From positions 273,501 through 337,500 of the forward strand of contig CALZFC010000059.1 of the NCBI GenBank assembly GCA_945643635.1: 64,000 nt of DNA, read 5' to 3'. Position numbers and translations under genes: made by a program. This document shows positions 4,001-49,812 of this stretch, piece after piece. The DNA comes from Allodiplogaster sudhausi (Eukaryota; Nematoda; Chromadorea; Rhabditida; Diplogasteridae). How positions within the stretch are numbered: the stretch's first letter is position 1; each line of letters begins with the position of its first letter. The notes under the pieces were generated by a model. It made no database searches. It was not told the origin of the DNA and saw nothing but the letters and a program-made list of their open reading frames with translations.

Positions 4001-4278
4001 TACGGCGAGACGGCAGCGATGGATGTCAGAGAGAAATTCTCTAAATTTGCTTGATCTATCCTCATATCCTTCACTTTGATCTATTGCTTCCTTCGTAACG
4101 TATATTGATTGGTTTGTAAATATTGATTGAATTGCAGTTCAAGCGCATTCTGAACTACCTGGGCGGGCTGGTCGCCTCGATCATCGGCTTCTCTATGGTG
4201 ACTGTCGTCGAGTTCTTCGAGCTGATCGTCCGTGTCCTCTGGTGGTGCGTCCGGCCGCTGCCCAAGCCACGCGCATAA
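164..4278 (+). CDS. EGAS-type DEG/ENaC sodium channel (EGF + ASC domains), 5' partial, one in-frame stop
   Basis: Exons 164-286, 366-482, 613-696, 900-961, 1037-1124, 1297-1356, 1673-1838, 1985-2094, 2227-2306, 2572-2664, 2747-2842, 3040-3145, 3434-3561, 3808-3888, 3971-4024, 4138-4278 join in one continuous reading frame. The first exons encode Cys-rich EGF-like modules (CYVEPCKNGTC, CTCFAGFTGADC, CKNNGICHN, CVCSAEYTGETC). The rest matches the extracellular loop of amiloride-sensitive channels: GNCFTFNH, YSGAYSTD joined to GCLRSCYQDM, CDCMDPRYPVPEG, CACPTSC. The last exon gives the pore and second membrane segment, with GFSMVTVVEFFEL as the selectivity-filter region, and ends in a short basic tail. 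EGF modules in this family lie in the extracellular loop, so the first membrane segment and start codon should be left of the window. Such channels conduct sodium in nematode sensory or epithelial cells. An in-frame TAA at 2816-2818 interrupts the model. Family assignment is strong; which egas paralogue is unknown. Confidence 0.88.
1003..1031. repeat. (TA)n microsatellite
   Basis: About 14 TA dinucleotides lie in the intron before exon 1037-1124 of the EGAS-like gene and run almost into its acceptor. Confidence 0.95.
1600..1665 (+). repeat. Dispersed CAGGCAAAAAGG repeat, copy 1 (in an EGAS intron)
   Basis: It contains CTGCCTTGTGT, the exact core CAGGCAAAAAGGCGCGAATT (1612-1631), CAAACGTG and TTTTGGCTCTTTTA. 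It lies in the intron before exon 1673-1838, ending within about ten bases of that acceptor. Confidence 0.8.
2816..2818 (+). other. In-frame TAA inside the EGAS-like channel
   Basis: In exon 2747-2842 the codons read Asp-Ser-Tyr-TAA-Tyr-Ser-Gly-Ala-Tyr-Ser-Thr-Asp. The frame is set by both neighbouring exons and by the conserved YSGAYSTD/GCLRSCYQ junction, so the stop lies in the middle of the conserved extracellular domain. A single substitution from TAC or TAT would account for it. No alternative GT donor that skips the codon in phase was seen. It is a real nonsense allele, a pseudogene lesion or a base error. Confidence 0.75.
3620..3745. repeat. GA-rich tract in an EGAS intron
   Basis: GA and GAAA repeats occupy most of the intron between exons 3434-3561 and 3808-3888. 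Unlike the receptor and mlt-10 introns, the purine strand here is the coding strand. Confidence 0.9.
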
Positions 4279-4300
4279 CGGGCCTTTTTTCTCTTTTGTA

Positions 4301-4306
4301 AATAAA
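4301..4306 (+). promoter_or_regulatory. Polyadenylation signal AATAAA of the EGAS-like gene
   Basis: A canonical AATAAA begins 23 nt after the TAA stop at 4276-4278. Nematode 3'UTRs are often this short, so it is the likely cleavage signal for the upstream gene. Confidence 0.6.
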
Positions 4307-4666
4307 ATGATGATCTTTAGCCAGTTAAAGCCGGGAAAGACAAAAACGGATTTCTATTTTTAACGAAAGATATTTGACAAGTACAAGACTATTGGCGACA
4401 GCAAGCAAGATTTCGCTGTGTGGCTCCTACTACGGATGAGAGCAACGACTTCGGGCGGCTGTCACTCCATGATCACCTCGAAAATCCGCTCAAAAAAAAT
4501 TTCAGCAAAAAAAATTTACTTTAGAAATTTGTGACAATTACTCTTCTTAGAATATGATGATGCCAAAACGTTGCCTGCTTGTCTACACATAATATGTATG
4601 TATGTATGTGACAACACCGCCATGTTACTAACAAGTTTTCCGAACATGTTCCAAGCTACATACCTA

Positions 4667-5160
4667 CAGTCCCGCCCAACATTTCAGGTACATAAATTAA
4701 TTAGATTAATTAGATTAATTTAAATAATTTCAATTGAAATTTGAGCGATATTAGGCACTTTTACGCAGTACCTTGTGTTTGTAAGGGTGGTTTTTGAAGT
4801 GCTGAACAAGTACATACCGTTAGATTTTAAAAAGAATCTCAAATGACCGTTTAAGATCGAATTCTGCCGGTTTTAGGAGGGTCATGACCGTCTTTTAGGT
4901 GCTGTCGATCGTGTGTTTTCGAAGGCACCTAAAACACGGCCATGACCCTTCTAAAAACGGCCGAATTCGTTTTTAAACAGTCATTTGAGATTCTTTTTAA
5001 AATTTGACTGTATATACTTGTTCAGCATGTCAAAAACCACCCTAACAAACACAACAAACTGCGTAAAAGTGCCTAGTATCGCTCAAATTCCAATTGAAAT
5101 TATTTAAATTAATCTAATTAATCTAATTAATTTATGTACCTGAAATGTTGGGCGGTACTG
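4667..5160. mobile_element. Foldback (long inverted repeat) element, about 494 bp
   Basis: The segment is almost entirely two inverted arms of about 235 bp (roughly 4667-4905 and 4925-5160) around a small centre. It starts CAGTCCCGCCCAAC and ends with the near-complement, with one extra mismatch in the right terminus, and a TA dinucleotide abuts each end. The arms include repeated TTAATTAGA units and long A/T blocks. CAGT ends with TA flanks are typical of Tc1/mariner-derived non-autonomous elements; that link is inferred. No coding capacity is visible. It shares its terminal bases with the element at 13998-15045. Confidence 0.85.
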
Positions 5161-5436
5161 TACATATAGAATGATTGAACGGTGGACACCAATATGTTTG
5201 CTAATGAATTGTATTTTTTTATAAAATAAAAGCGTCCATTCTTTGCAACGCAACTGTGCTTATACATATGTACGTTAATGAAAACAATTTTCTGTTTACT
5301 GATTTTAAAATTAGCTTATTTGTCTGCTACTGCGCTGGTAGCACAACTTTAGTAAATATATTTCCCAAAACAACCAATCTCTCTCTTTTTCCATCTGCTC
5401 AGTTAGCACATAATTTGTTTTAACGATGATTTATTG

Positions 5437-6150
5437 TTAGTGAAATGTAAAATTTTAAACTAATAGTAAATTTCTGGATGTAGGTATTCTTTCCACATTT
5501 ATAGCCCCCGGCGCAAACGCTAGCTATGCATTGGAGTTGGCTTACCATTACTTTAATTAAGCGCTCGTCCCCGTGCAAAGACACTTTTTTTACTTCATGA
5601 TAGGAGAGGTGAACATGCATGTTGGTCCCACACGAACATGCATGTTGGTCCCACACGAACATGCATGTTGGTCCCACACGAACATGCATGTTGATCCCAC
5701 ACGAACATGCATGTTGGTCCCACACGAACATGCATGTTGGTCCCACACGAACATGCATGTTGGTCCCACTCGCCATTAAATTGGCTATTCTTGTACATAT
5801 GTATTACAATATATTATCCCTATTTTAACAGGTCGTCTAAATGAAAACGGATTCCGCTTTGAAATTAGGTATAAAAAATATTTTTCCACACAACTTCGTC
5901 GGAGAGTGTTGCTATTGAGTTTTGCGCCATATTCGGCGAAAACGTTGCCCTAGCAGACGATGGAAGAGGGGCGAGGTCGTCACTCCCATGACGTGTCGAG
6001 TTCAACGACAACGCTTGCTACAGTTTTCGTCTAGCAGCGAGCTCTAAAATAACTTGCTCCAATTTCTCATTCGTTTCACATGCTTTTGGTGTGGCGCCCG
6101 CCCACCGAGCACGAGTTTATCACATCTCGCTCATGACGCCTTCTTCTGTT
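5437..6150. repeat. Diverged dispersed repeat, copy A
   Basis: This segment aligns by eye with 6330-6880. Shared landmarks in the same order are a block around GGTATT..TATAGCC, GCGCAAACGC versus GTGCAAACGC, the CATGCATGTTG..CCCA block followed by CCATT-AATTGGCTAT, a TATTCGGC block, and a CAGC-GAGCT block followed by TTCTCAT and TTCACATG. Copy A additionally carries the 23-bp tandem array. No gene is recognisable in either copy; together they look like two old insertions of one non-coding element. Confidence 0.65.
5611..5770 (+). repeat. 23-bp tandem repeat, about seven units
   Basis: Units of the form ATGCATGTTGGTCCCACACG plus AAC repeat about seven times with almost no variation; one unit has GATC in place of GGTC. 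Each unit contains the palindrome ATGCAT. Because 23 is not a multiple of three, open frames appear in several frames on both strands, none with other support for coding. The related copy at 6460-6500 has a single unit, so the array expanded inside copy A. Confidence 0.9.
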
Positions 6151-6329
6151 CTGAATGATTAAATGAATTATACATTATCTTCTAACTCTCTTGTCAGCTA
6201 AGAAATAAGAATAAAATATAACAAAAATACATATGAAAACTGTTTTACTTCAAACATTAAAGGAGGACAGAAATCAACCTTAACTATTATGATTTTTGTC
6301 TGATAAATATTAATTTAATTTAACAAACT

Positions 6330-6880
6330 ACCTATTTAAATATAAATAGATCAAATTCTGGACAAAGGTATTATTTTCAAGTATATAGCCGCTGTGCAAA
6401 CGCAACCCCCCTCGCAGGCTGCTTCTTGCTCTTCTCCGTGCAAGAGAGTTCTTGATATGTGAGGAGAGCATGCATGTTGCTCCCATTCACCATTCAATTG
6501 GCTATCCTTGCTGTAATATGATCCCTGTTTTAACTCGCCATCTAAATGAAGACGATTCTGCAACGAAATTATCGTTGGTTGTAAAACAAATTCCCTCACT
6601 TTCGTCGATGAGACTTTCGAGAGAGGCTTGGGAAATATTCGGCTGAAAAGCTGCTCAAGGATATGACGTTTGATAAAAGGGGAAAAGGGAAAAGGGGAAA
6701 GCGTCACTATCCAGATGTGGCCAGGTTAGTGCACTGCACTTTTACACGGTTTTCATCCAGCATCGAGCTTGAAAACATGATTGAATTTCTCATGAGATTC
6801 ACATGTCTTTTCTCATGACACACGCCGATCTAGCACGTGGATCTCATGTGCTTCTCATGGCTTGTACATCATAATGATGT
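6330..6880. repeat. Diverged dispersed repeat, copy B
   Basis: This is the partner of copy A at 5437-6150, with the same landmark blocks in the same order and orientation but a single CATGCATGTTG unit instead of an array. A short run of GGGGAAAA-like units occurs near 6680. The stretch 6900-7826 that follows holds one dispersed-repeat copy (7085-7170) and no recognisable gene. Confidence 0.6.
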
Positions 6881-7084
6881 ATTGAATAAAAAATAAATTA
6901 ATAATTAAACAAACCCTTCCCTTCCCTTCCTTTTTTCTCTCATGTCAGATATTAAATAAGAATAGGATGAAGAGACATATGATAATTTCTTCACTTCTAA
7001 TATTAATGAAGCACGAAACGTGCTACCGTAATCATTTCAATTTTTCCGAATTTTTTTTTTCAATTTTTTTTGTCTCGTCTCTGT

Positions 7085-7170
7085 AAATTACATGCTCTTT
7101 CTCTCTCGTCCTTGTATCAGGTAAAAAGGTGCCAATTCAAGCTTGAGTTTTTAGTTCCTTTAAACACGAT
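7085..7170 (+). repeat. Dispersed CAGGCAAAAAGG repeat, copy 2
   Basis: This copy reads through the same ordered blocks as the others: GTCTC, ACATGCTCT, TCTCTCGTCCTTG, ATCAGGTAAAAAGGTGCC, AATTCAAG and TTCCTTTAAA. It lies in the intergenic DNA before the trehalose synthase gene and is more diverged than the copies at 1600 and 34900. Confidence 0.7.
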
Positions 7171-7826
7171 TGTCCCTGGCCGTGTCTGGCATCAGCTAGA
7201 CATGCATAGATGATGCCATGCATTGGCATGTGATTAATCTTCGTCATCGTAGCTCTCTCAGCTGAAGAGGTCTTGGCAGTATGATACACTAATGGTAAGA
7301 CCTTTTTCTAAGTTCTTTTTATGTTTCTTGGTATGTCGATGCAGAACATTAGATTTGTGATGAAATTAAGCGAAGACTGGTAACCGTTATGGGTATTTTT
7401 GCGCTCTAACGACAATTCATGGGTTGAACCGGCAGTTTCAGCAATGACTGTAGTTCGCTAAAAGGGCGACGGTTCAATGTAATGTGAAAGGATTTCAAAC
7501 TCTATCGTACTTGTCTCGCTCTCTTTCTTTCTCTTTATTTCTCCCGTATCACCCAATAGAAAATACTATACAGTGTACAATGTCTAACAATCTTACTACC
7601 TGCAAAGATTGAAGCCTACGTCGGTTGTGGTCTTTCTATGCGCAAAAGCTTCTGAAAGAGTATGGCTTGCGATAAAATACTCGCAGTGCGAGATCGTTCG
7701 TGGAGTGAAACACACAAACTAACAAAACGACGATAAAATCATGTCAAAACATTCCAAAGTCTGAAATGATGTTTAGCGAAACTAAGTGATTTGTACATGT
7801 TAAGAAAAATTTCTCCAAAGGACTCT

Positions 7827-10800
7827 TCAGGCTTCGAGGAAAGCTTCGCCCCATCGCTCGGTGTCGTTGGCGATAATAAACGCCTTCATTGCGGAACCGC
7901 CCTGGAGTTGAGTCTTTTCATCCTCATTGGCCGCTTGGAAGAAGGCGACTGCTATCGACTGAAAGGAAGCAAATTTTTATTTCTATTTAAATATAATTAA
8001 TTTTATTATTTTCTTCGATTAGAACATCTTTCAAAATAGTCTTTGTCAGAGAGAAAGAGAGAGCGACAGAAGGTGAGAGATTGAGAGGGGGAGTTAGGGA
8101 GATGTAGAGAGAAATTGCGTGCCTCAATGTCTTGGACGTTCTCGACTCTCGTGTAGTTGTGCCGGCCGGTCTCCGAGTCCTCAAAGAGGCCCGCTCTATG
8201 GAATTGACGCTCCGCCCCAGCCCCAGTCGAGAGAATCAGGCGGGCGGCCGGATTCACGACGGCCATCTCTTTGGCCACCTGATACATACAAGGAATGATG
8301 ATAGTGAAAAAGAGTACTCGGAGAGAATGAATATGATATATGCGTGACTGATTTTCAGAAGTCGAGTATATGAGCTGATGAGAATAAATATTTATTAAAT
8401 AGTACATATGTAGAAAGAATGCCTTTCCAATTATTAGTTTAAAAAATATTTGATTTGCATACAAGATTCAAGCCATCCTGGCGCGGCGTCACGACCCCGA
8501 CGTCCATTGCGGAATAACACGCAATGAGCTCGCGGCGAGTGCGGCCTGCCAGTAATGGATTATAAATGTAGTTGGCAGAAGCATAAAACTCATGTACATA
8601 CATATCTGACATACTACTTTTACGGACACTATATGAAAGAGAGTTGCAATGACCTTGTTCTAATAGAGTTTTTTTTTCGAAATAAGTGGGTAATGATTAA
8701 ATTATTACCGTTTGTTTCTAGTATGATCGGCTTCCAGTTCTCCGTCTGAAACTGTGCGTTGATTGCAGCGGCGATTGCAAGACACTCATCTTGATAGGCG
8801 GCATAGTAGTCGGATCCCTGAAAATGACATGAGATAAAACAAAGATATCACTGATCAACATCAGTTCTCATTGAAATTTTATTCATAAAACTATAAGCAA
8901 TCGAGGTTTGATACAAAGGGCAATAATTCTCAAGCAGATCATTTACATAAATAAACAATCAAAAGCGTACACTGCTTTCACACACCATCTTGGATAGGCG
9001 GAATTTTCTACAGCAACTCGCCACCTGAATGTTGAAGACAATTATTTCTTTTAATTATTGGGATTTTTCAAAATTCTGTCCCTTTACATAGAGTGTGTGT
9101 TTTTGTGTCCGTTCGTTGTGTTTTTTGTCAATTTGTGTTGTACGTGAGTTTGTAAGAACCCGCCTGATATAAGACGTCTTTCCCCTGTCTCTCCGGGTGC
9201 TTAATGAGATAGCGACAAAAGCCTAGGAGCTTTTCTCTGATTCCCTTCGTGTAATCGAAACGTTCAGCAGAGAAGAAGAGACGCGCATCCGCCGAAGCAT
9301 TGTCGCCAAGCGCCTAAATATTAACTTGTTTATTTATTCAGCTAATTATTTGAGATATCAGACAAAGTGTGCGCATTACACTATGACAATTTAAAATTAA
9401 TATTATTAAAGACCTTTCTCCGGATTGCCTGCGCCATTTCGGCAGTCTCCGGCGAATGTTGGAGAAAGTCTGCGGTGGGAATGGAGACGGGAAAGACGCC
9501 GATCGTCGTTGAGCGTCCTGCCATGCTCGCAGTGTACACGTCGAAGTCGCCATCGTACTCCAACTGCAAGCGAACGGGCGATGCTTGGCATTCTCCCAAC
9601 TATTTGAATTTTCTGAGTATCTATTGTCTCTCTAAATCACATGTTCTCTCGCCTTTTTGTTAGGAAAAAAAATGCGCGAATTCAAATGTGTATTTTTTTT
9701 ACAATTTCAATTCGTTCAACACATATGTATATATGTTAACCTTGGCCTCCTTCACATTCTTCTTCACTTCTTCCACGAATCGCTCTCGGTCCTCGTGCGT
9801 TTGAAAGCCGACCTGTAAATGGTGGTAATACTGCAGGAAAGCTTGAATGATGAAGAGAGAATGTGAAATATTGAGAGAGAGAAGGCCAGCGACGAAAAGA
9901 GAAAAGAGAAAGACCTTTGAGAATGCTAGCAATCCGCGGAGCACCGAGATGCCGGCGAGCTCGAACTCCTTGAAGAAGTCGGCCGAGGGATGGAAGGGAA
10001 TATGCAGGAAGAAGACGACTTCGATTCTCGCATCCATCGACTGCAGCTGCTGCCCGACCAGGAAGAGGTGGTAGTCGTGCACCCAGATGACATCCTGATT
10101 TTAATAATTTATTCATTTATTGATTGACTTATTGATCATAATCATCCATTTCTATATATATAGATTGCATTCGCTGAAATGCACAATGAAAGACATGAAA
10201 AGTAAAAGCCTAAAATATATCTTCTTCTTTCCAGCCCTTTGCAATTTGAACTCTTCCTAGTATATCCTTAAAATAAATACCCGTGGCCGGCTGATCTTGG
10301 CAAGTTCCATCGCAAACTGGTAATTGACACGAATGTAAGAACTCCAGTGTTGATGCAGGGTCTGGAAGGAAAAAGGATTTTAATACTGTAATTAATGTTT
10401 ATTATTTATGCATTTACTAACTACTATATCATTTATGAACCTTTTCATCTCTGTAAACGTCAGGGATGTACTCGTCGAGTCCGTGGAGAGCCGGCCAGAG
10501 TAGATTGTTGCTGATGCCGGTGTAGTACTGCGAGAAGTCGCCCTCGTCCACCAGCACCGGCTGCAGTCTGTAGCCGCCGCCGTTGTAGTCAGCCAAGGCA
10601 TCGAGCAGCAATGTTGTCTCTCTTAGAACACGATACAGTAAGATGGCAGTACATACTTGGCCAATACCGGTTTTTTCCTCTCTCAAATGGTACTTATTAG
10701 CAGTCACGGTTAAGGCATAACTGCATCATGTTCAGCAAAGAACAATCCCACTTCTAATGTGGACATGGTTTCTCTCTCTCACACTCTTCTTTCTCTCACG

Positions 10801-13640: not shown

Positions 13641-13997
13641 AACATCTCGAAAGAATATTCGGCTAAGCTGGCTCAGAAAGAGGCATAAAATTCTTTTTTT
13701 TCTAGATAATTAAATTTCGCTCATGATCTTAACATAAGATATCTTGTAAATTAAAAGCCTTTGCGAATTTATAATTGTTTTATTTCATTCTATGCCTTTC
13801 CTTAGCCTTTGCTTTGTATTATGGCTGCGATGAATTGGGCAGAGAATTGCCTCATATTCAAGTTCCCTCAGCCTTCCCTCAAGCTCTTTGCAGATATGCG
13901 CCACAAGCGTCATGGAGCCTGAGGTGCCAGTCCATTTTCACCGTTCCGTGGAGCAGTCAGTTTGGTCATGTATTCTTTCGTATGAGATATCTACATA

Positions 13998-15045
13998 CAG
14001 TCCCGCCCAGGATCTTGGTACCAAGGATGCGTCGGACGCATCGGACGCATCCAAATGCATCCTCGTTAATAACTATTTTCCTAGGAAAGACTAAAATATT
14101 TTAACTTGTACATTAGTTTGCTTATAGAGAACGGATGCTACTGATAGAAAATCGATAATTTCTAATCATTTGATAAGAAGTTATCAGTTTTTGCTTATAA
14201 AAAACTTCATTTCTAATATTTTTCAATGAAATTTCTCCTGTACTATTATTTTGTCTCTACCCACATCCCCAAATAACAAAATTAGAGATTGTATCATTGA
14301 TAACGGAAATCGATAAATCAGACTTTATCACGCATGTTCATTAGCTGAGAAGAACCGCTTAACGATTCTGAATCTAATTATGTAATCAGTTTTACAATAA
14401 AGTGCCGGTTAACAATATATTCTTGATTGTGAATACTCTTCATGACTTTCTTCAGGATTCCCCGTTGTCTTGGTCTTTGTCAAAATTTTGGCCCGGTATG
14501 ATGCTTCAAATCTAGGGTGCTGCACTAGCATTGAAACTTAGACATGTAACACGCGCGCTTTCCGTCGCCGGTTTAATTACCCAAGTTTGAGGTAGCGAAA
14601 TAGCACAGGCAGAGAAAAAAAGGGGTAGGCCCCGCCCCCTCGGCCTGCGATAATTAAACTGATTAGATAATTAGATTCAGAATCGTTAGGCGATTCTTCT
14701 CAGCTAATGAACATGCGTGATAAGGTTTATCGATTTCCGTTATCAATGATACAATCTCTAATTTTGTTATTTGGGGATGTGGGTAGAGACAAAATAATGG
14801 TACAGGAGAAATTTCATTGAAAAATATTAGAAATGAAGTTTTTTATAAGCAAAAACTGATAACTTCTTATCAAATGATTAGAAATTATCGATTTTCTATC
14901 AGTAGCATCCGTTCTCTATAAGCAAACTAATGTACCAGTTAAAATATTTTAGTCTTTGCTAAGAAAATAGTTATTAACGAGGATGCATTTGGATGCGTCC
15001 GATGCGTCCGACGCATCCTTGGTACCAAGATCCTGGGCGGGACTG
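13998..15045. mobile_element. Foldback element, about 1.05 kb, with SL1 in its spacer
   Basis: Two inverted arms of about 400 bp (13998 to about 14395 and about 14650-15045) match almost base for base; sparse differences show the arms are not an exact palindrome. The ends are CAGTCCCGCCCAGG and its complement, and TA abuts both (13996-13997 and 15046-15047). Near each tip is a triple GGACGCATC unit and a GGTACC. The 250-bp spacer is unrelated to the arms and contains the 22-nt spliced leader. No reading frame for a transposase is seen. Ends and TA flanks suggest a non-autonomous Tc1/mariner-like element (inferred). Confidence 0.9.
14570..14591 (+). ncRNA. Exact SL1 spliced-leader sequence (fragment, not an intact SL RNA gene)
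   Basis: All 22 bases of nematode SL1, beginning GGTTTAATTACCC, occur here, followed directly by GTA as at the donor of a real SL1 RNA gene. After that the match fails: the TAAAC that pairs with GTTTA in stem I is absent, and no Sm-site plus terminal stem is seen in the usual place. Short SL-RNA-like words (CATTGAAACT, AAAATTTTGG) occur upstream of the leader instead of downstream. This is best read as a captured or rearranged piece of an SL1 locus within the foldback element. Confidence 0.8.
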
Positions 15046-15050
15046 TATGT

Positions 15051-16551
15051 ATGTATAACAAATTGATTAAAGCACATCTTCAAAACGTTGGAGAGGACAG
15101 GTCGACATTTTCGTTGTCGCTCCTATTCGTGTACAGAAGCAACCGACAGGTTGATAGAACACGGCTTGCAATAATTATCGCAATCCATCATATGCTAAGC
15201 TCTAATTTTAGATTTATTTACTTAATCCCTCTTTCACTAGTGTATTTCTTGATGTACACGTATCCTGTTATAAAGTACATAAATACATACATAGTACATA
15301 TTTAGAAGTTTTGTTGCAGCAGATGAGGCAAGCCTGGTTGGTAGAGCGTACATACATACATATATGCAGGAAACTTACGACAATGTTCATATAGATTAGA
15401 TAAGGAAAAGAATGAGAGGAGCCGGAGATAAGAACGAGAGAGAGAGAGAGTGAGCGAGAGAAGAAAGGGAGAAAAGAAAGATACGGACAGAGAGAGAAGA
15501 GAAAGGATAGAGAGAAATAACGAGAGAGAGAGAGAGAGAGAGAGATAAGGAGGGAGAAGGAGAGAGAGGAAGAGGAAGAGAGAGAGAGAGAGAAAAGGAG
15601 AAAGATCACGAGAGAGAGAAAGAGGGCATATTGATTGACTTGATCCATGACCTCGACTGTGAATCACTTTGAGTAGAACAAAGAACATAATGACGTTCCT
15701 TCGATCGACATGTTGAATTAATTTAAACTTGGCGGGAGATTTGAAAAAGGAGAGAATCGTGGAAGTACTCGTGACCGTAAATCGGTCATCTGCAATTAGA
15801 ATGAAGATCAATTCTTAACGATGCTAACGATAAGAGAGATTATGGGATGAAGAAGAAGGACGTAATCATTGGAGACTAAGGAATCAGAGCAGAGCGCAAA
15901 CATTTGCAAGATCATTCTTCTTGTTTTCGTTTGCTCTGTTAATCATGCTCACTGATGACGTAGACAATGCAGAAGAGAACTGCTTTCCCGGTGTTCGCAT
16001 CTTCTCTTCTCTGTTTATCAATCTGATCAGTCGCGCCTTCCTGGAAGAGACGGAAAGGAAGAAGAAGAAGAGACAAAATCGACTCCAAAAATGAATGAAC
16101 GGCTTCATTCTCTCATCATTCCAATTAAATGGAGGGCAAGGAGGGAGGGAGGGAGAGAGCGGTTGAGAGAGATGAGAGAAATTAAAGATGAAGTAGAGAA
16201 AGGGAGAGAGAAAGACAGGGAGAGAGAGCGAGAGAAAGGAAGGCACGGAGAAGAGGAGGAGAGACAGAGAGCGAGAGAGAGAGAGAGAGAGAGAGAGAGT
16301 TAGACAAATGAGGCACATCACCACATCGAGTTGTTTACCTCTTATACAGTGAGCTTCTTCACGCCTTGCCACCATGTGAGACGCGCCAGACGGACGCATT
16401 CTTCTGCTTTTCTCTCTCTCACGGTCGCCCATTTCCCTTGTTCGTTCTCTCCCTCTCTCTTTCGCTCTTTCAGCTCTCTTGCTCTCTCGTCCTACTCGCT
16501 CTCTCCCCTTCTCTTTGCCTCTCTTTGTCTCTCAGTCTCAATGACCCTCCT

Positions 16552-17836: not shown

Positions 17837-17908
17837 CATATAAGACAGTGTGAATTAAAAAGTTTGGTTTTTCTCTGCATTTTTCAGTTTTGCTGTTATT
17901 TTTGGCAA
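17837..17908 (+). repeat. Left terminal inverted repeat, 72 bp
   Basis: This begins CATATAAGACAGTGTGAATT and ends TTTTTGGCAA, and is identical to the complement of 27970-28041. The base outside it (17836, A) differs from the corresponding base on the right. Confidence 0.92.
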
Positions 17909-18420
17909 GCAAATTTGCCAGTTTTCAAACCCAATTATTATGCCACGGCAATTTGTACGATTGTCAAGAATGCCACCAAGGTTTATTCATTAATATTGAT
18001 CATGCCAAAATTAACAGCTGTCTAAAATGGCAAAAACAGCCTAACCAAAAAATAAACGAGTCAAAAGGGGCGGGGCAAAATTGTACAAGTGTTAAAATAA
18101 CATGGCACAGAAAACGGTCGAAAAATTTGTCACATCTTCTCGAGGAGGAGTGGGCTTTTTTGCCAAAAAAACCAGCTGATAAATCTGCCAAGAAAACCTG
18201 CCAGAATTGATCAACTGCTAAATTTGCCAAGCCAAAATATTAGAGTGAAAAATTTGCCAAATCAGCTTGCCAATTTTGGCGGCTAGCAGAAATGGCATGG
18301 CAGTTTAAACAGGTGGCAAAAAAGTCTGGCAAAATTTATTGCTATCAAAATTGGCAAAGCCTTTTTGACGGTTGTCAAAACTGGCTCGTCATTTTCAACG
18401 ACCGTCAAATTTGGCAAAAA
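17905..18420. repeat. Left subterminal array of TTGGCA/TGCCAA motifs
   Basis: Roughly twenty copies of TGCCAA, TTGGCA or one-mismatch forms, often extended to AATTTGCCAA or CAAAATTGGCA, are spread over about 500 bp in both orientations at intervals of about 15-40 bp. The array stops near 18420, before the leftward gene's last exon. Such clusters next to transposon ends commonly serve as transposase binding sites; that role is inferred here. Confidence 0.8.
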
Positions 18421-18732
18421 GTGGAATTTCATGATCGGATCAATTACAACATAGTACAAGAAATATGGAGCATGGAATAGTCGAAAAGGAATGAGATTTA
18501 AAGTGATACGGTAAACTGCTACAGATATGTTGCAAAGACTGGGGGCAAAACTGAAAGGATTCATATTTCGAAAGAATATAACAGTATTGAGATCAAATTG
18601 TCCGTTAAATTCATTAAATTCACAGGCGGACAATAATAATGGATCTATTAATCGTGTTAACTATGTAACAAAACCGGAATGAATCAGTGGAGTTACGAAT
18701 TATATAACGGTCAAAAAAAGAATTCAAATGAA

Positions 18733-21700
18733 TCAATCATCAATATCCCGACTGACATCATCATCCGATTCCACGTCAGCTTGAATCGATAGCCTCTGGC
18801 GATATGCTCTGTAGGCGCCTTCGAACTCGTCACAATTTGAGTCGACGATTCGAATGGAGGAGGAGGCGACAGCGAAGATTGCCACTGAGCCTAAAATAGA
18901 CTTTGCAAAGTTTCGATATGAAAACGGTATGTTGTGCCCGTATATGATTCTGGACTTACTAAACGAACCTGACGATCAACTAAGGACCGCGAGACTTTGC
19001 TCTCTATTAATTGTAAGACTACAAAAAATCTAGCAAATTGATATAATTGAGGGAGCTTACTCTTGAATGACTCGATCGGGCCAAAGAAGCTTGTACTGAT
19101 TGCATTAGGGCTCTCCTCATCCGCACACATGGCGTACATCTTCCGGAAGAGGCTTATCGAATCATTCTAAAACTGCCAACAAATTGAACATTGTAAGGTG
19201 GATATGACGCCTCATTTTATTGCTATTAGAATACAATCTATTGCTCTCGTTGTAGTTCATGTGAAAGCAATTAAAACATTAAATACTTATATTTAATAAA
19301 ACAAGTTTCGTACAACATGTTAAAAAAGCTGACCATCGACAAGAGAGTCGATCGCACATGAAATGTCTCGCAGATCTTGGGAAGCGTGTATTGTTCGCCC
19401 GTGAGCTTGAAGAGGAGACGAAATGGCAGGATGGCGTTGTGAATGTAATCTAAATGTTAAATATGTTGCAAAATGTCAATGATGCTTATCAGAAGAGCCA
19501 GAATAATCCGGCTATAGATCATTTAGAGAGAATAAAATGAAGCAGATACCTCCAACTTGCTTGGTGAGAGACAGGTACAGTTGGTGGATCTCGCTGACTC
19601 CTAGACGACAGCGCAGAGCATCAAAGGCGCTGTTTCCGTTGCCGAGCAGAATGACGAGGCATGATCGTCTCTTCAGCATGGCCTCGATGAATACATTTGC
19701 ACCCTGCGATACAAAAATGATTAAGAAAATAGATTGGAGCTACATTTTCATACAACTAACAGGCTCGGCGACAATTGCAAAGGGAGGTGAGTCGCAGTTG
19801 ATGTCGACAGTCTTGAAACTGGCGCAAGAGCCAAACTCCGATCTTTTTGCCCGATCCTTCTCAATCGACATCAGCAATCTTCTTCTAATCTCAGCCCCAT
19901 CCAGTCTTGTCATGCGTGATGAGCGAATTAGTCTGGGTAAAGTTGTAATTATCATAGCAAAGTCAAAGTAAACTATTAAGCCTAACACAATAACACTTTT
20001 AATCCAAAAAGTTTTAATGCACCTACCGTAACCCTCGGTAGGCCTCCTTGTTGCTTAGGCCTTCTAGAACGGCGCTCGCAACTTCTTCAGAGTATCCTTG
20101 AGAGAGAAGGAGCTGTACGGCGCATTCTTCCGTTTGCGTCAACTTCTGTAAAGGAATATGAAAAATAGATAGCAAACCGAATATGTTTGGAAGCAAATAA
20201 TACAAAAGTTATTCTACCTCCTTGAATTCTCTTGCATCTATCTTGCCGTCTGCCAATTCAGAGAGGAGGGCGTTGATGGCGCTCGTATTATGCTTCCTTT
20301 TCTTCAGAACCACTTTCCAAACCGAGAAGTTGTTGAAGTAGTCGAACTCACGAGACTGCATCAAATATGTAATTAAAAAGTGAACTTTTCCTATTGTTGT
20401 TTATGTGAAAATAACGCACCAAGACTCATGTGAAGGGGTTGTATATGGCCTCATCCGAGTCCGCCAAACGAATAATCGGCTCAGAAGGATACTGCGAAGC
20501 GGGAAGCAGAAGATGAACCTGAACAAAAACGAGTTCATAGTTTTAAAGACAAATCTAACTAATTTTTTGCGTGACATCTTTTGTAAGCCGAGAACATACC
20601 TTCCGCTGTTCTCTAATTATTAGAATAAAAAACAATGAAGTAATCCAGGATATTAAGATTCTAGCACATAAAAGGTAAGAAAAAAGTAGAACGGACAGTT
20701 TGTGACAGCAGTCGCATCCTTGGTGCGTCCGTGAATCTTGTCGTTTCCGCAGAAAGAGTTGATTCTCGAGAGAGTCCTAGAACGCGCAGCATCCTTCTCA
20801 CGTGAGATGCCTGAAACAGTATTCCAACAATACTTAAAAAGAGGTTTGGCAAAAGCGAATAAAATCAGCTTTATGACGTCTTAATGAAATTCATAATAGA
20901 AAAACGCTGCTGCAATTCATAATAGAAACGATTAAGAACAAACTTTTTCCGCCACGGTGTACTCCTTCTCGCTCTTCGCAGACTTAAGTGCAAGGAGTGA
21001 TGCTGCATCTCGTGACAGTTTAACGGTGACGCACTTGAGCTGTAAAGGAAAGAAAGTCTAAGCTTATGTTTACAATAAAATTAACATTTGGAAAGAATGA
21101 AGGTTTAACTAGAGAATGAAAACATGACGTTCTTTTGTACATTATAAAACACACCTTTCCTTCAATGAATGGTGTACCGCCTCTCTTGACAGATTCGCCA
21201 TTCAATTGGTGCAGGGCAGTCACTCGATGCTGTCCATTTAACACCAGGAATCTGCACAAAATATTTAAATTTCATTAAAAAATAAATAAATGTATCTGAA
21301 TAAAAGTGCAATTTTTTTCATTTACATTCCACACTTCATTGTTTACAATCAGGATAATAAACATACTTTCGCCCATCGTGGAACACGAAAGGGACGACAC
21401 TCTCGGGCAGCATATGACGCGAAAGAAGAAGCTGCTTCATCCGCTCGACATGGTCGGGGTAGACACTTCGCAGAATGCCGTCAACGAATAGTTCCGCGAC
21501 AGCTAACTGAACATTATACAAGTTATAAGTTGCTCAAATAGACAAATTACGCTTAAAAAACTTTATTAGCGCTGCTGGAGGGCCGTGGGTCCCATAAACA
21601 TTTCGAGAACATGAACAGTACACTCACAGTAATGATTTCATAGATGGAATACTCGACTGACCTCTACAGACTCCTTCGTACTAGACATCCAGCCGTTGAT

Positions 21701-22336
21701 GACTCCTTTTGCAGTTTCTGAGGAATGAAGAAGCGTGGATCTCGTTTCAATCGCGGTCATGCGACGCTTCTTAGCTTTCGTTGGCTGCAACAATTAAAAC
21801 GGAGGTAATATTCGGTTATTCCCGCACCAAAATTTTCTACAAAGAAATGCCCCTCAAAATCGAAAGTGTTTTTTGATGCGAAGAATGCGAATATAACGAT
21901 CCAGTGTTCGGTAATTAATTTTTTTTATATATTCTCAAGGCATGACCAAAATATAGTTATTGAAACTATAGTTATGTAACTGAAGGATTCAAAACGAAAG
22001 GATGAATACTATAATACTGAAAAGATGTAATATACCGCAATAGTGTAGTTGGTCGCGGGGCTCGACCAGGTCGATAAGTTCGAAATATCCCTTAGCGGCC
22101 TTGCATTCTCGCTTCCGAATTGAGTTTCCTGAACGGAGCTAATTGTAGTGGAATTCCTTCCCCGTGTTCACAAAACTTTAACTCGAAGAAAAGAAAAACG
22201 ATCGTATAGAAAAACGATCCTAAAGTGGAAAAATCATCGAAAATAATAAGGCTCTTACCGGGACAGTGTCAGAGAGTGAAGACCGCCTCTCCATTTCGTT
22301 CGCTGCCAGATCAGCCATGTAAGACCTCAACGGCAT
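18733..22336 (-). CDS. ParB/sulfiredoxin-like domain protein of the 10.2-kb element, one in-frame TGA
   Basis: Exons in transcript order: 22336-22259, 22128-22036, 21784-21662, 21506-21367, 21251-21155, 21039-20944, 20810-20697, 20518-20420, 20355-20218, 20145-20027, 19932-19761, 19703-19550, 19449-19334, 19166-19061, 18890-18733. All fifteen join in phase to 600 codons. The first ATG lies one base after an acceptor-like CTCAG, fitting trans-splicing; a second in-frame ATG is six codons on. Residues about 57-66 carry a basic, NLS-like PTKAKKRRM. Residues about 99-210 match a ParB/Srx fold: a helix, MLPESVVPFVFHDGRKFLVL followed by NGQHRVTALHQL, then a TVAEKASHVRRML helix. The C-terminal 300 residues are mainly helical and unrecognised, ending in an acidic tail. 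Codon 278 (20428-20426) is TGA. Domain recognition is by motif only; nuclease or NTPase activity is not shown. Confidence 0.75.
20426..20428 (-). other. In-frame TGA in the ParB-like gene
   Basis: In exon 20518-20420 the codons read Tyr-Asn-Pro-Phe-Thr-TGA-Val-Leu before a GTGCGT donor. The exon is in phase with both neighbours and no other donor avoids the stop while keeping the frame. A single CGA-to-TGA change would explain it. The 322 codons downstream remain fully open, so the lesion is recent, is a base error, or is bypassed in a way the sequence does not show. Confidence 0.7.
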
Positions 22337-23564
22337 TCTGAGATTAAATTCTTAGGGTGTGGAATGGTGTTGAGGTAAAAGGGGAACGAGTTTGAGCAAG
22401 GTAAATCGAGTTGGCAAATCGAGACATCGGCTTACACTACTAACGCACAGTCCTAGGTGAGCATTTCAAATTTATGCGCTAAAAATTTAGTAAAAAGCGG
22501 CAAACATTTAAAAACAAAAGACGCCAAATCTCAGAAAAAGTTAATAACAAAAAGTTCATGCGATCCATGAAACCACCGCTGCGGCTATTGCTGACAATAC
22601 GAAAATACTTGGCAATTTGCCAGCCTGCGTTGCGGTCACGCGTCGCGCGGTTTTTGATGTGCAGAAATTTTTCAAATACTAATAAATGACAAATGAAACT
22701 AGTTCAGTGTTAGGCTTGTAATTGTGTCAATGTTTCTGTTTTTGCCTTTCCTTTTTTCTTCAACTATAATTCATATGAATAGTTTACACTTTAAGAGAAG
22801 ATTGAAGCGTGGCTGCTTCTTCGCGCTTCTTCGAGTGAGCTCCCACTACTTTGAAGGTTTGGAATTCTCTTTGGAATCTTTTTATATATTTATTTTGCTT
22901 TTTGGGATTATCGAGCTAATTTTATTTTAAGCGTCACCTTTATATTGGGTTCGTTAACACCATGATTCTCAAATTGTGCATCGGGGGTTCTAGGACCAGG
23001 AGAACAAGTATATGACATTTGTTCCTTTTTCGTTATTGAACCAAGCCATGCGAGGCAATTCTTCCTCAGTTCTGTGATAAATTCTGTTAAAGGGCTGCTT
23101 TAAATGTGATTGTATGTTCGTAATACGATTCATGACTGCTGTAATGCGAATACGTTGCTGTGCTCACTACTGCTCCAGCTACGTGACAAGGTAGAACCGA
23201 TAAATATAAGCAAGTATAAGTCATCAAATTAAATTGAGCATAATTTATAGGAGCATTTAAATTATTCACACCCAAAGGCCTTTTTTCGAAATTTAAGTTT
23301 CCCAAAATTTATCGGTACGGAGAACACTAAACTGGTATTCCTATACTATATTGACGTTGTATTCCAGAGTTACGGTAGGTATTCGGTATTTGCACTTTTG
23401 GCACCCAGCTAATGATAATTCATAGTATTATTTTAAATGGAGAAGACGAAGATACTGTTAATTTTTCTCGTTAACCTTTATTTCAAACAACGCCGCAAAG
23501 TTATGACTTGCACGTAGTTACGAGCAAAATTGCATGAAATGTATACTTACCGTACATTGGGAAA

Positions 23565-23572
23565 ATGACGTC
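23565..23572. promoter_or_regulatory. TGACGTCA palindrome (CRE/ATF-type site)
   Basis: A perfect 8-bp palindrome matches the bZIP CREB/ATF consensus and lies about 67 bp upstream of the ATG of the transposase-like gene. A chance occurrence in 1.3 kb is possible but not likely (roughly 2%). Confidence 0.4.
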
Positions 23573-23612
23573 ACAAATTTTTGCTTTTTCTTAACATAAA
23601 ATAGTAACGCTG

Positions 23613-23618
23613 TTTCAG
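23613..23618 (+). promoter_or_regulatory. Putative trans-splice acceptor before the transposase-like gene
   Basis: TTTCAG preceded by T-rich sequence ends 13 nt before the ATG at 23632, with no matching cis exon found upstream. That is the usual geometry of an SL acceptor in nematodes. A missed upstream cis exon is the alternative. Confidence 0.5.
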
Positions 23619-23631
23619 ATTAGATATCAAT

Positions 23632-26600
23632 ATGATTCGAGCAAGGCTATACGAGGAAATGCGAGAGAAGGGGAAGCGAAACCGAGGAGAAGTCCTTCGA
23701 GCACTGGTATGTCGTGGCTTTACTTCGTTTGGAATGTTTTATTTCTCCATATTTTCGAATTGTTATTTGTTTCCTTATTTTCGGCTAATAGCGAAAAGTT
23801 ACGTCGCATTGGAAAGGTATTTGAATTAAACTTCAGGCCCTGAGTAGTGCAACTCTGAATGGCGACGAAGCGAGCATTCTGCCCATCATAAATGGGAAGT
23901 CAATCTGCGCCGAGCTCTTCTGCGTGATCGTGAACGTCAGGCTGACAAGGTATGATTATATAATTTCATCCTAGTTATCAATTTATAACTTACTCACTAA
24001 TAAGTCAGTGCTAAAATATTAGAGATGGCTGATGGGAAGGTACAAGAGGTTAGAAAAGGGCTATCCCGGGGCTCTGGGACATCCTACCAAGGAGGGGAGG
24101 TTTTGTCACCGAAAACTAGACCTATTTCGTCATTGTTCTAAGTTCCTTGAGAATAGAAGCTTTCTCTTTTAGACTGGTGGACTGGCTTCGGAAGGCTAAG
24201 AACGGTCAGGCTGAGCACGTTCACGCAGCCGCGCAATCTAAAAAACAGACTACGATTGATGCGTGCTCGACTATGATGGCAGAGGTGCTTCGACATGGGC
24301 ATCATGGTGGAATCATGATGCCGGCCGGACTGAACAAGAGGTATCATTTCAATACAACCATTGAGAATTTCAACTATATGTCGTTAGAATTTTAGAAGAA
24401 ATATTTTGGCTTTCTTTTTTATCTAACAGCGTATCTTACGCTACAATACTTCTTCAGTCGTAACCACACTCCACCTTTAGCTCCTTTCTTCGCCTCTGCG
24501 ACACGCCGCTCCGCTTTTCGACTTTCTCTAAGCTCACAGGGATGCAAGTGCGATTTAGAAAGGTGAGTAATTGTGATGTTTATTACGAACTTTCTTTTCT
24601 GCTTTCCTTTTTATTGTTATATTCCTTATCTTTTTCATTTATCTTTTTCAGTCCGATAATCATCTGCGCTGTGACATCTGTGTCGGTCTCGCTCACATCA
24701 TCTCTACACGTGCTGGGGCCGAAAAGCAGAAGGCATTAGAGCTCAGGAAGCAGCACTACGAAGCCATGTGGTGCGTATTTACGACATTTTGGGATCTTTT
24801 TTGCTGCTTTATTAAATACTAGTAAGTTAATGAAATAACAATGTGGTATGATAAAAATTGTTAAGTCATCTACTACATCTGACATTAAGATATAAAATAC
24901 AAGACTGGCAAAATATCATGCATTCAAACACCTCAGCATTTTTTTTTAAACATTTTTTTATCTATGACTGTAACTGTTGTCAGGATTGATCGGGTAACTG
25001 TCGGAACTGCTGACCAGATCTCGAGAGCGTCTCCTAGCGAATTACTTGTGCTGAGAGTGGACGGAATGAGCAAAAAATCGACGAAGGTTTTAACATTGAT
25101 CTCTGAAATTCTATCGTTAATATTGTATTACGCTGCAAACCACATAAGTTGATTTCACTATTTAAAGAATGTTTTCACTTTCATTCCGTTAAGATAACCA
25201 TTTCAGATTCCTTGTCTTGTACGGAGACCCAAGAGAATTGGTGACGTGAGTCGCCAGAATGTCGACCTGACTGCTGTACAACTCTCACGAATGCGTCAGT
25301 TGTTCATTTTATGCATTCTACTGTGCTGACAATACCGTAGTTTGTTCTCTTCATTTGTCCGATTACCGTAACTACTGAGAGTCTTGCATTATGTATAATT
25401 GTTTTGAGAATAAGAGTGTATTCGTTTAGACATTGATGGCAGCAAGTTCCATAACATTGCCTTCTTGAATGTCTTCGAAGCACATACTGGAGGCGCTGAT
25501 CAACTTGGAAGCTACATCATTCACGCGCTTTCACAGGTAAGGTTTTCGATATTGTAAATTATGTACTATAATATGGGGAGACTGACGAAATAACTATCAA
25601 AATGTATTGTTTGAAAGGCGGACGTGATCCCTTCACGTCTCGTCGTTATTGCTGACAATGCGCCGTGCATGAAGTCGGAGAAACTGCATGCATTCTTCGG
25701 CTGGGTGATGCTTCATCTGCCAATCGATGAGGTCCGTCTTTTATATAACTCTAAAAAAAAGTATCACAGTATGTTGAACTAGAAGATAATGTTCGCAACA
25801 TTGCGCATGTGAATTCGCAGGGTCAATTTTCTAGATATAATCTACCTTGTAAATAAGTCTGGTGTGATCTCAGATCATCTGTGCTCACTTGGCAGTCGGG
25901 CACACGCACAACGAAGTGGATGCTTTCTTTGGCTCCGTCTCTCGAGCTCTCCGAAGGGAAAACATTTACACTCCTCAAGGTAACTAATTATTAAAAAAAT
26001 AGAGCCAAGTCAGAAAAATTCTTAACAAGCATTATTACGGTAGGCCTATGCTCAGATCTCTCTGAAGTCATCGCTGGTATTGGATACACTACCGTCCTGC
26101 CAGCGTCGACGCAGTACATGTTCAGCGAGCTTGGTCGATTCGCTCAGAAATACAAGAACCGCGTTAAGCAACGAGTCTTCCGCTTTTTCAAGCGCAATGG
26201 AGGTTTTAATTGCTTTTTCAAGTGCAATGGAGGTTTTAATTAATTTTTACTTCTCTCTTAGCTATATTATTCATGCCTTCTAGTCGAAAAAAGCTCGCCC
26301 TTCTTCTGTTCGTTGGAAAGTTGTTTTTTCAGCAATCCGATTCAAGGCAGCTGCTTGTATGACTCCAGATCTGTTGTCGCGCGCGGCAACCGATTGCGAC
26401 GGGCCTTCGCTGAATCTCTTCACTGTTAGTCTCTTTTTCAGTTATCTTGCGCTATTAAAGTGGCTCACCATGGAGCTTACATTACTATCTTTTCCTGAAG
26501 ATTACGGTAGTTGTTAAGGCCACTCAACAGCCTGTTTTTTTTTCAATTTTATGTTGATTCTGAATCCGAATTGTTATTTTTCATTTCTCTTTACAGGAAG

Positions 26601-27147
26601 ATGCGGAACAGGAACTAAAAGCGACTCTTCCTGGGCAGATGCTTCCTGACGTCGCGAAGGCCGAAGCAGCGTGTGCTGCCCTTCTCAAAGTTGTTGCTCC
26701 TTTCATGAACGATGAGCGGAAAGCAGAGATTGCAGAGCTTCCAGCACGGCTACGGAGGCAACAGGGTATGAACATATGTCAATTGCATCCGATAAAAAAA
26801 TTATTAAACAAGCCTAATAATAGACATTTATGAGGCCTTGTGATCCGTCTACCGTCCAATTATAGTTTCAAAACAAGGGCTATTTTGTATTTTTGCATAC
26901 AGTTAATTTTTTATGATAGTTAATATCCTGATTGTCAGCCGTTCCGCTTGCACTGCTGCTCGATGATCTGCTGGAAAGATGTGAGGCCTGCAATAGAGAA
27001 GCTGAAACAGTGGACGTTGTTGAAGAGGAGTGTATCTACGACTTCTTGCATGGTCACGGATTCCCCATGGGCAACTCACACGAGAACATGCAGCTCGCAG
27101 CTAGAAGAATTGCTTCTTCCAGTGACGACGGCGACTCGAGTGCCTAG
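23632..27147 (+). CDS. Transposase-like protein, RNase H-fold/DDE type (DUF7869-like), 570 residues
   Basis: Exons 23632-23706, 23837-23949, 24173-24340, 24481-24562, 24652-24770, 24984-25086, 25207-25294, 25430-25536, 25618-25731, 25874-25979, 26044-26162, 26284-26424, 26597-26765, 26939-27147 join in phase without any stop. An N-terminal region (NGKSICAELFCVIVNVRLTR) is followed by a C153-x2-C156 motif (HLRCDICVGLAH), then a beta-strand with D212 (LLVLRVDGM), HNIAFLNVFEAHTGG, D298 (LVVIADNAPCMKSE), and GHTHNEVDAFFG with H333, H335 and D339. Three acidic residues on alternating strands in this spacing fit an RNase H-fold integrase core. The layout resembles the family I know as DUF7869; that label is from memory and needs a profile search. 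The C-terminus is acidic and helical. It sits inside the inverted repeats, opposite the ParB-like gene, and is the best candidate for the mobilising enzyme. Confidence 0.8.
26182..26241 (+). repeat. 30-bp direct duplication in a transposase-gene intron
   Basis: A 30-bp unit beginning GCTTTTTCAAGCGCAATGG is repeated in tandem with one difference (AAGC versus AAGT). It lies in intron 26163-26283. If the intron were retained the frame would stay open through both units before a stop, giving a shortened protein. Confidence 0.7.
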
Positions 27148-27384
27148 TATGTCTTCTTTGCTAACATTTATCAAATAACATCTAGAATGTAATGGTGAAC
27201 GCTAAATGGTATTTATTTATGCAGAAATCTTATTGTAGAACTACTCTTGTTTCATGACTGATTGAATGTGGTATTGTCATTGCTTCCTTCTTGCATTTTC
27301 TTTATATATGCTGTTTATGAAACTTTAGTGATCTGAGGAAGAACGCGATTTTAATAGGAGCGAGAAGACTTTTTTTGCGGTCAG

Positions 27385-27975
27385 AAAAGGATTTGCCTTT
27401 TTTAGCGGTTGTCAATACTGCCAGCCATTATTCATAGCCGTTAAAATTGGCTTGCCACTTTTGAAGGGTCGAAAATTTGGCTTGACATTTTTTATGCCCG
27501 TTGAATTTGCCAAGTTGCCATTTTTGACGACTGTCAAAATTGCCAAGTTGCTCGGCCGACAGTCGCTTCCTCGTGGCAAATTTCTCAGCTGCTAAAAATG
27601 CCGAATCGACTTGACAATTCCGATAGCTGTTTATTTTGGCAGTGACATTTTCCATACTTGATAGACTTGCCAAAACGTTCAAAATTTTGGATCCTTGCTA
27701 ATTGTGCCATGGAAAATTTTGGGGGCCATCAAATTTGGCATGCTTCCCATCCATATTTCACGGCCTTCATTTTTGCCGGAACAAATTTTTTTGTTGCTAA
27801 ATTTGCCGAAGCCCGGTTGTCAATAATTAGAGCATATTTCTGTGGATCATCCATTTTCTTCGCTTGTACATTGTGTCCGTCATTTTATTAACCGTCTTAT
27901 TTGCCATGACAAATTTGAATCAATGAATAAAATATTGCCATATTTGCTTGTGTGTTTTACTTGCCAAATTTGCCA
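27385..27975. repeat. Right subterminal array of TTGGCA/TGCCAA motifs
   Basis: Roughly eighteen TGCCAA/TTGGCA motifs or near matches, in both orientations and with the same extended forms as on the left, run from about 240 bp after the rightward gene's stop to the right terminal repeat. Beyond the first 72 bp the two arrays do not align base for base, so they share motif and density but not order. Confidence 0.8.
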
Positions 27976-28041
27976 AAAATAACAGCAAAACTGAAAAATG
28001 CAGAGAAAAACCAAACTTTTTAATTCACACTGTCTTATATG
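27970..28041 (-). repeat. Right terminal inverted repeat, 72 bp
   Basis: This is the exact reverse complement of 17837-17908. The flank immediately outside is CATGAATGTATGTAC, an ATGT-rich microsatellite-like sequence that obscures any longer target duplication. Confidence 0.92.
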
Positions 28042-48496: not shown

Positions 48497-49779
48497 TTCT
48501 CTCTATCTTTCTCTCTCTTTCTCTCTCTCATTCCTTCTCTCCCACATTCTCTCCTTGCTCCTCTCTCTCCCACATTCTCTTATCTCTCCTCTATTTCTCT
48601 AATTCTTCTCGTTGTTCCCTCATCATTCTCATCATTATCTCTCAGCACTTCTCTCTCTTCATGTATATATGTATTCAATGAAAAAAGTCTAGTTGTTTCA
48701 TCGTTGCATTTCCGCTGGATGAAGGCTTAAAAGGCATAATAAATGTGTCTTTCCATCTCAGGTGAATCTGCTGTCGCCATCGCTCTTCTCTCTCCACCGC
48801 GGCGGCAAGGGAATCGAGAGGGCGACGAGTCTGGCGGATGGCTTCGGCCTCGTGCACGGCAGGGATCACGAGGAGTGGCTCAACTTTGTCATGGAGGCCG
48901 CGGGCGTCACCGACGCCGTCGACTACATGAAGGCACGATTGCGTTTCAAATAATTGACATTAACTATAAAGACTTATTTCAATAATAATAATTCATTTCT
49001 GATTACGGCCATAGGAACCAAGAGCCATTCTCTATTTTCATTCTCTTTTTTCCTCTGAAACAATTTCATGCTTCGATAATGTCTATCAATATCTGTGAAG
49101 AGTTCTATATCATTTTTGCATCGATAATCATACTAGGAATTAGTTCTTTAATGAAAAATATTGAACAACATTTTTAAAAGATCGTGTATATAAATATACC
49201 TGCTTAAATGAGCAGGAAACTCTGTCGTAATCGACTTAAATTTTCCTGACGCCCTTGTGTCAGGCAAAAGGGCGCGAATTCAAAAAGAGTTTTCGGCTCA
49301 TTTTAGGACGAGAAGATCAAGAAGGCGTCTGAGCGCGGGCTGGACGACTCGGAGCTGCGCTCGCCGTCCGGCCAGCCGCTCTTCTTCTCCAAGCAGAACG
49401 TCACGGAGATGTACGGCGACCCCGAGCTGCGCAAGATCGAAACGTTCGAGCGACTTCAACGCACTTTCACGCCCGAGCAGGTCGAGTCCGCCTTATAAAA
49501 ATTATTGAATTTTCTTGTCCTACAGTTTTCTAACTTAATCTAAATACTTAAGTATGTATGTACATACATCAATAGTTTGAAAGAAGCAAAATTAAGATTT
49601 CAAAAATTTTCTGCAGGCGAAGGAGCAAGAGGAGACGGGCTACTTCATCATGACCCCCGAACAGATTCGCATTGTCTACGGGCCAGAGTCACCCTTCAAC
49701 AACTCCAAAACACTCAAGGAACTCTCCGCCATTCCGAAGGAGGACATGCATCATCACATCGAGGTTGCTTGGCATTTTA

Positions 49780-49812
<33 letters not shown>

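Follow-up and report, generated by a model that had tools for sequence, protein, structure and literature searches.

CACTA/EnSpm and PIF/Harbinger transposons encode, besides a transposase, a separate DNA-binding protein, which in EnSpm binds subterminal repeats; in two-component transposons, accessory proteins act in end recognition and assembly. Here we describe an element of about 10.2 kb from the nematode Allodiplogaster sudhausi that is very probably best explained as a cut-and-paste DNA transposon with two genes, its lineage being marked by a DUF7869 transposase and its second gene product being a ParB-like protein. It lies in a 64,000-nucleotide stretch (GenBank assembly GCA_945643635.1, contig CALZFC010000059.1, positions 273,501 to 337,500, forward strand), which is referred to as the window and numbered from its first letter, and it differs from CACTA/EnSpm and PIF/Harbinger in the folds of both transposase and partner.

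A literature search for ParB together with transposons returned a single relevant precedent, Sola1-1_Ec32 of Ectocarpus, in which a ParB-like gene likewise lies on the strand opposite the transposase of a eukaryotic DNA transposon; it differs in having a Sola1 transposase, a length of 21.5 kb and a ParB protein fused to a DNA methyltransferase (PMC12477816), whereas Pfam matched no methyltransferase here. KDZ/Zisupton elements of Pristionchus likewise combine a multi-exon transposase gene with inverted ends in a nematode (PMC9297572); however, their PF18758 transposase domain had no Pfam match here at E ≤ 1, and Zisupton makes duplications of 8 bp (PMC12730594) as against the 2 bp seen here. 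PHISTA and ESTA of rust fungi share TA duplications and the presence of additional genes beside the transposase, but carry a TET/JBP dioxygenase gene and Harbinger- and EnSpm-related transposases (PMC12730594). KolobokP is also a DNA transposon of animals that encodes a DDD/E transposase next to another enzyme-like gene, though with long terminal direct repeats, a His-Me finger nuclease and a Kolobok transposase (PMC9587614). Tc1/mariner shares the TA duplication (18 of 19 whole copies here, the other having TG), but its transposase profile found no Pfam match at E ≤ 1, and neither the Harbinger transposase profile nor the Myb/SANT partner of PIF/Harbinger (PHIS) was matched in Pfam. The pairing of DUF7869 with ParB was absent from the titles and abstract openings of papers on new nematode or TA-duplicating superfamilies and of superfamily lists, and DUF7869 was named in no paper of the literature searched; Pfam lists the family as being of unknown function.

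The initial annotation of the window had proposed a transposon-like unit with 72-bp inverted ends free of mismatches. The arms, at 17837-17908 and 27970-28041, are indeed 72 nt long and 100% complementary, and a 19-mer taken from them, with as many as 3 mismatches allowed, had no matches in the window other than those at the two ends (two matches were reached in 0 of 100 shuffles). The exact limits given at first, 17837 and 28041, had to be moved inwards to 17841 and 28037 when 19 whole copies were compared. The element and its ends are as follows:

17841..28037, no strand: mobile element, about 10.2 kb, 5'-TAAGACAGTG...CACTGTCTTA, placed from the flanks of 19 whole copies and from the 100% identical copies C46 and C16
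17841..17908, plus strand: left terminal inverted repeat, 68 bp
27970..28037, minus strand: inverted repeat at the right terminus, perfect, 68 bp
17839..17840: left target-site duplication TA, from flank comparison of whole copies
28038..28039: right target-site duplication TA, from the same comparison

In the assembly searched (351.8 Mb, 382 contigs) a first look returned 563 candidates with the left-end query and 521 with the right-end query, totals that are neither confirmed nor complete because 40 of each were scored. All 40 matched for each query, with E below 1e-57, and 33 of the scored left ends were examined in detail. Two copies on other contigs, C46 and C16, are 100% identical to the window element over 10,204 and 10,205 bp, so that identical full-length copies stand at three places with different flanks. 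Two further full copies (C345 and C27) are 99.3-99.5% identical and carry about 170 bp extra in the middle, while C270 and C242 bear deletions, C33 and C4 have been shortened by deletion to 3.5 and 5.2 kb, and matching in C245 is limited to the left 1.5 kb. An older copy, C128 (loci L032 and L049), is mostly about 94% identical, 11.0 kb long and has both genes.

A second subfamily, to which 21 of the 32 left ends compared belong, shows 83-92% identity across the left end. Whole copies that are either of this subfamily or untyped inside number nine and measure about 0.7 to 6.1 kb. Neither gene was found in the second-subfamily stretches fetched, several of which end before the right terminus, and remnants of the last transposase exon were present in five of six such copies checked at looser settings. 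Gene-less copies that keep both ends are what is expected of non-autonomous derivatives. The unit between the TAAGACAGTG ends has thus been dispersed as a block, and deleted and gene-less derivatives retain the ends, which bears out the transposon proposed at the outset. Two loci had features of their own. Inside the gene-less copy C355 (L027/L028), at about 3900-8700 in transposon orientation, are endonuclease- and reverse-transcriptase-like frames, judged by eye to be apparently a nested non-LTR retroelement. L037 (C26:4408211-4418210) has two left ends 2.8 kb apart that share identical 40-bp flanks, and is a local tandem duplication including a transposon end.

The initial annotation had suggested a search for further copies with clean target duplications, and a 2-bp repeat was found directly outside the TAAGACAGTG ends in all 19 whole insertions; it was TA/TA in 18 and TG/TG in copy L043 only. 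By this comparison the termini read TAAGACAG...CTGTCTTA, and the outermost 4 bp of each 72-bp arm consist of the TA target duplication and palindromic target bases. The insertion sites are palindromic and TACATATGTA-like, with a consensus near TACA-TA-TGTA, while the outer flanks vary among copies. Since the 2-bp repeat sits outside TAAGACAGTG in a palindromic site, we take the 72-bp end to be about 68 bp of element plus target bases. The left-end query contained 4 bases beyond the element, which the right-end query did not, and may therefore have favoured copies with such a flank; the right flanks used came mostly from copies found with the left-end query. At C1:7114690 the element is inserted in a TACA microsatellite, and excising it together with one TA keeps the 4-bp register, bar one altered unit. 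A 2-bp duplication around an element at 17841-28037 is the best reading of these flanks, because TAAGACAG ends with 2 bp duplicated account for the TG pair and require fewer odd units. AGACAG ends with a TATA duplication fit worse, failing in L043 (TGTA/TATG) and disrupting the register of the microsatellite insertion; AGACAG ends with a TA duplication are a less likely alternative.

The motif arrays that had been noted inside both ends were also borne out:

17892..18420: left subterminal array of motifs of about 20 bp like GYTGTCAAAATTTGSCAA, 11 hits of the 16-mer
27408..27990: right subterminal array of the same motif, 13 hits

The motifs occur in both orientations. TTGCC/GGCAA was counted 12 times in each subterminal stretch of about 0.57 kb (20-21 per kb), as against 1.7 per kb beyond the element and 1.9 per kb in its interior, and a count of 12 was reached by 0 of 500 dinucleotide shuffles at either end. 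For GTCAAA/TTTGAC, another of the six word pairs tallied, the right end showed no enrichment, its count there being matched or exceeded by 59 of 500 shuffles. A degenerate 16-mer (at least 14 of 16 positions) gave 29 hits in the window, comprising 11 at the left end, 13 at the right end, 5 outside the element and none in the interior; its consensus was written from these same ends and is hence biased towards them.

The two divergent genes filling the interior could be assembled as spliced models, with 14 exons on the plus strand and 16 on the minus strand:

23632..27147, plus strand: putative transposase gene, 14 exons, 552-562 amino acids (one junction uncertain), Pfam DUF7869 (PF25273)
25060..25062, plus strand: codon of the first candidate catalytic Asp (D212, VDG)
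25654..25656, plus strand: codon of the second candidate catalytic Asp (D280, ADN)
25913..25915, plus strand: codon of the candidate catalytic Glu (E319, HNEVD)
22337..23631: region between the divergent genes, presumed to hold promoters
18711..22336, minus strand: ParB-like gene, 16 exons, about 615 codons, reading frame of the last exon uncertain even after comparison with C128
21155..21506, minus strand: exons 4-5, containing the ParB-box-like segment FLVLNGQHRVTALHQL
20420..20518, minus strand: exon 8, 99 nt, frame-neutral, with a premature stop

The exons of the putative transposase gene (52% G+C) are joined by GT-AG introns (33% G+C); our first model has 562 codons, and the other junction after exon 11 would give 552 or 556 amino acids. 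A 30-bp tandem duplication at 26182-26241 adjoins the exon 11/12 junction and is probably intronic. The initial annotation, which knew of no superfamily defined by this pair of genes, had named profile assignment to a known one as an outcome that would count against it; Pfam gave only DUF7869, for residues 260-392 (E 8.6e-14, 52 bits), above the gathering cut-off of 26 bits. The next family came only at 0.15, and no named transposase family appeared at E ≤ 1. A Pfam match of the core to V_cholerae_RfbT (0.012) was under the cut-off and was judged to be chance, and a PDB sequence search gave nothing under 0.5. The acidic triad D212, D280 and E319, which like the strands of the fold was assigned by eye, is spaced D-67-D-38-E. 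A CxxC at residue 153 precedes the first D, and H(4)H lies between D280 and E319 without C(2)C, so that the C(2)C plus H(3-4)H arrangement of the CMCT groups (EnSpm, Mirage, Chapaev, Transib) was not found there. Of the two gene products the DUF7869 protein is the stronger candidate, with suitably spaced acids and a dN/dS below 1, and it is probably the transposase. Proteins with this domain are known from dinoflagellates, oomycetes, cnidarians and arthropods.

The ParB-like gene likewise has GT-AG introns, in consistent phase, with 50% G+C in exons and 31% in introns. Its N-terminal 277 residues matched two PHROG ParB families, phrog_1033 (2.5e-5) and phrog_4715 (0.0024), the former over residues 113-225 (exons 4-7), which include FLVLNGQHRVTALHQL; the box is GxHRxxA-like. 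No Pfam family matched the gene product significantly. The C-terminal half gave nothing under 0.4 in PHROGs. Its Pfam match to BioW (0.049, under the cut-off) was judged to be chance, as were matches of a ParB-like half to TAL-effector chains in the PDB (0.0007-0.014), since no single stretch passed. The window copy has an in-frame TGA in exon 8, which is also found in C46 and C16; a sense codon stands there in six of the nine copies having the site (C242, C4, C270, C345, C27 and C128). The presence of three identical copies with a broken ParB-like gene implies that the gene is dispensable or supplied in trans.

Selection was assessed by comparing the window element with C128. The putative transposase shows 21 synonymous and 25 nonsynonymous changes (dN/dS 0.37, one-sided binomial P 0.0009) and the ParB-like gene 16 and 22 (dN/dS 0.43, P 0.009), by tests that disregard codon bias and have one copy pair as their basis. 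Coding indels of the transposase come in threes, with a 9-nt insertion and a 3-nt deletion in C128, and in the ParB-like gene 3 gap columns fall in exons as against 272 in introns. When near-identical copies were paired, each gene showed 3-6 counted changes, with more nonsynonymous than synonymous, and dN/dS is uninformative. The ParB-like gene sits inside the dispersed unit and its dN/dS is below 1, in line with the earlier suggestion that it is part of the mobile unit.

No protein homologue was seen in a set of 5.8 billion proteins among the 7,999 best candidates at each of E ≤ 1e-3 and E ≤ 1, or among 22 candidates at E ≤ 10, which is no evidence of rarity because eukaryotic proteins from spliced genes may be scarce in that set. 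In viral contigs a 30-mer from the end had 0 matches, and the 8 stretches that fitted a pattern of the transposase core included no relative; a 24-mer from the end had 0 matches in bacterial and archaeal genome contigs.

A number of observations weigh against the transposon interpretation or parts of it. Both gene models are hand-made predictions from the sequence. There was no match to ParB in Pfam, PDB sequences or, for the N-terminal 277 residues, NCBIfam/PADLOC, and the predicted ParB resemblance comes from the two PHROG matches. Exons are barely more conserved than introns relative to C128, in the ParB-like gene (97.9% against 97.0%) as in the transposase (97.1% against 96.7%); transposase gap columns differ little (12 exonic, 15 intronic), and the transposase of C128 itself has two premature stops. 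Because TA is itself palindromic, the length of the duplication is partly ambiguous and hangs on the single copy with TG and the single insertion in a microsatellite. A comparison of flanks that covered the retrieved loci and the window revealed no empty site. Finally, ends occurring singly, with no genes between them, had been named as an outcome that would speak against a transposon. For 19 of the 33 left ends the sequence retrieved also contained the right end, the other 14 coming mostly from stretches of about 6 kb that end early; however, for C245 and the two left ends of L037 there was none within the 7-11 kb fetched, and some ends may stand alone.

For a two-gene transposon we propose that the DUF7869 protein would act as an RNase H-fold DD38E transposase, cutting and joining DNA at the inverted termini. 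Its ParB-like partner may bind the subterminal arrays of ~20-bp motifs and help in end assembly, by analogy with the accessory proteins of two-component transposons; it would serve as an end-recognition or assembly accessory, either bringing the arrays together in a synaptic complex or acting as a loaded clamp. The combined proposal, that DUF7869 proteins serve as transposases in a eukaryotic superfamily not yet described and that a ParB-type clamp at the arrays assembles or bridges the ends, is put forward tentatively and on balance seems doubtful; under it, a protein of the partition type would have become a cofactor of transposition in an animal. The first part by itself, an undescribed superfamily marked by DUF7869, has a fair chance of being right, although Repbase may list such elements under some name, and we regard the element as a candidate for a new superfamily or deep lineage.

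A potential explanation for the ParB-like gene that would not need to invoke a part in end assembly is that it is a captured passenger, or that it serves the element outside transposition, in anti-silencing, self-modification or retention. This is a serious contender, if somewhat the less probable account: the premature stop in three identical, presumably recently moved copies implies that the ParB-like protein is not needed in cis, and for the ParB protein of the Ectocarpus Sola1 element, which has a DNA methyltransferase domain, binding and modification of that element's own DNA have been proposed (PMC12477816). However, trans-complementation would account for the mobility of copies whose gene is broken, and the dN/dS of 0.43 and the few coding indels suggest retention, which fits a role in transposition and some other useful role alike.

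A second possibility concerns the transposase. DDE transposases diverge past the reach of profiles, and the element could belong to a described superfamily, for example one related to Tc1/mariner, PHIS or CMCT, its transposase being too diverged for Pfam. TA duplications are known from PHISTA and ESTA transposons too, but the C(2)C between the second D and E that is common to CMCT groups (PMC12730594) was not found here, and DUF7869 alone scored above the cut-off while transposase families were missing at E ≤ 1; we consider such an assignment rather unlikely. An origin of the inverted ends as an artefact of assembly, or as a palindrome that flanks two host genes by chance, is barely conceivable: no supporting point was found, and the recurrence of the same ends in copies with differing flanks already contradicts it.

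Elsewhere in the window, an inverted-repeat unit at 13992-15052 (arms of about 460 and 400 bp) has 88-96% matches in the right flank of the L044 copy and is probably another dispersed repeat family. Ten other long open reading frames were scanned and two had Pfam matches, namely a Moulting-cycle domain (PF04870) at 49596-50153, consistent with a nematode host, and a trehalose-phosphate-synthase-like glycosyltransferase family 20 frame (PF00982) at 9702-10100. A minus-strand frame at 5423-5803 is built of a short repeated unit, GPTCMFVWDQHACSCG-like.

These results tie a domain of unknown function, DUF7869, to DNA transposition, in a family whose recent movement is marked by derivatives, by duplications of 2 bp and by 10.2-kb copies identical at three places. 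If transposase function is general among DUF7869 proteins, then those annotated with this domain in other eukaryotes would be reclassified as products of transposons. A testable question is posed by the motif arrays together with the conserved ParB-like partner, namely whether a ParB-type protein takes part in transposition in an animal.

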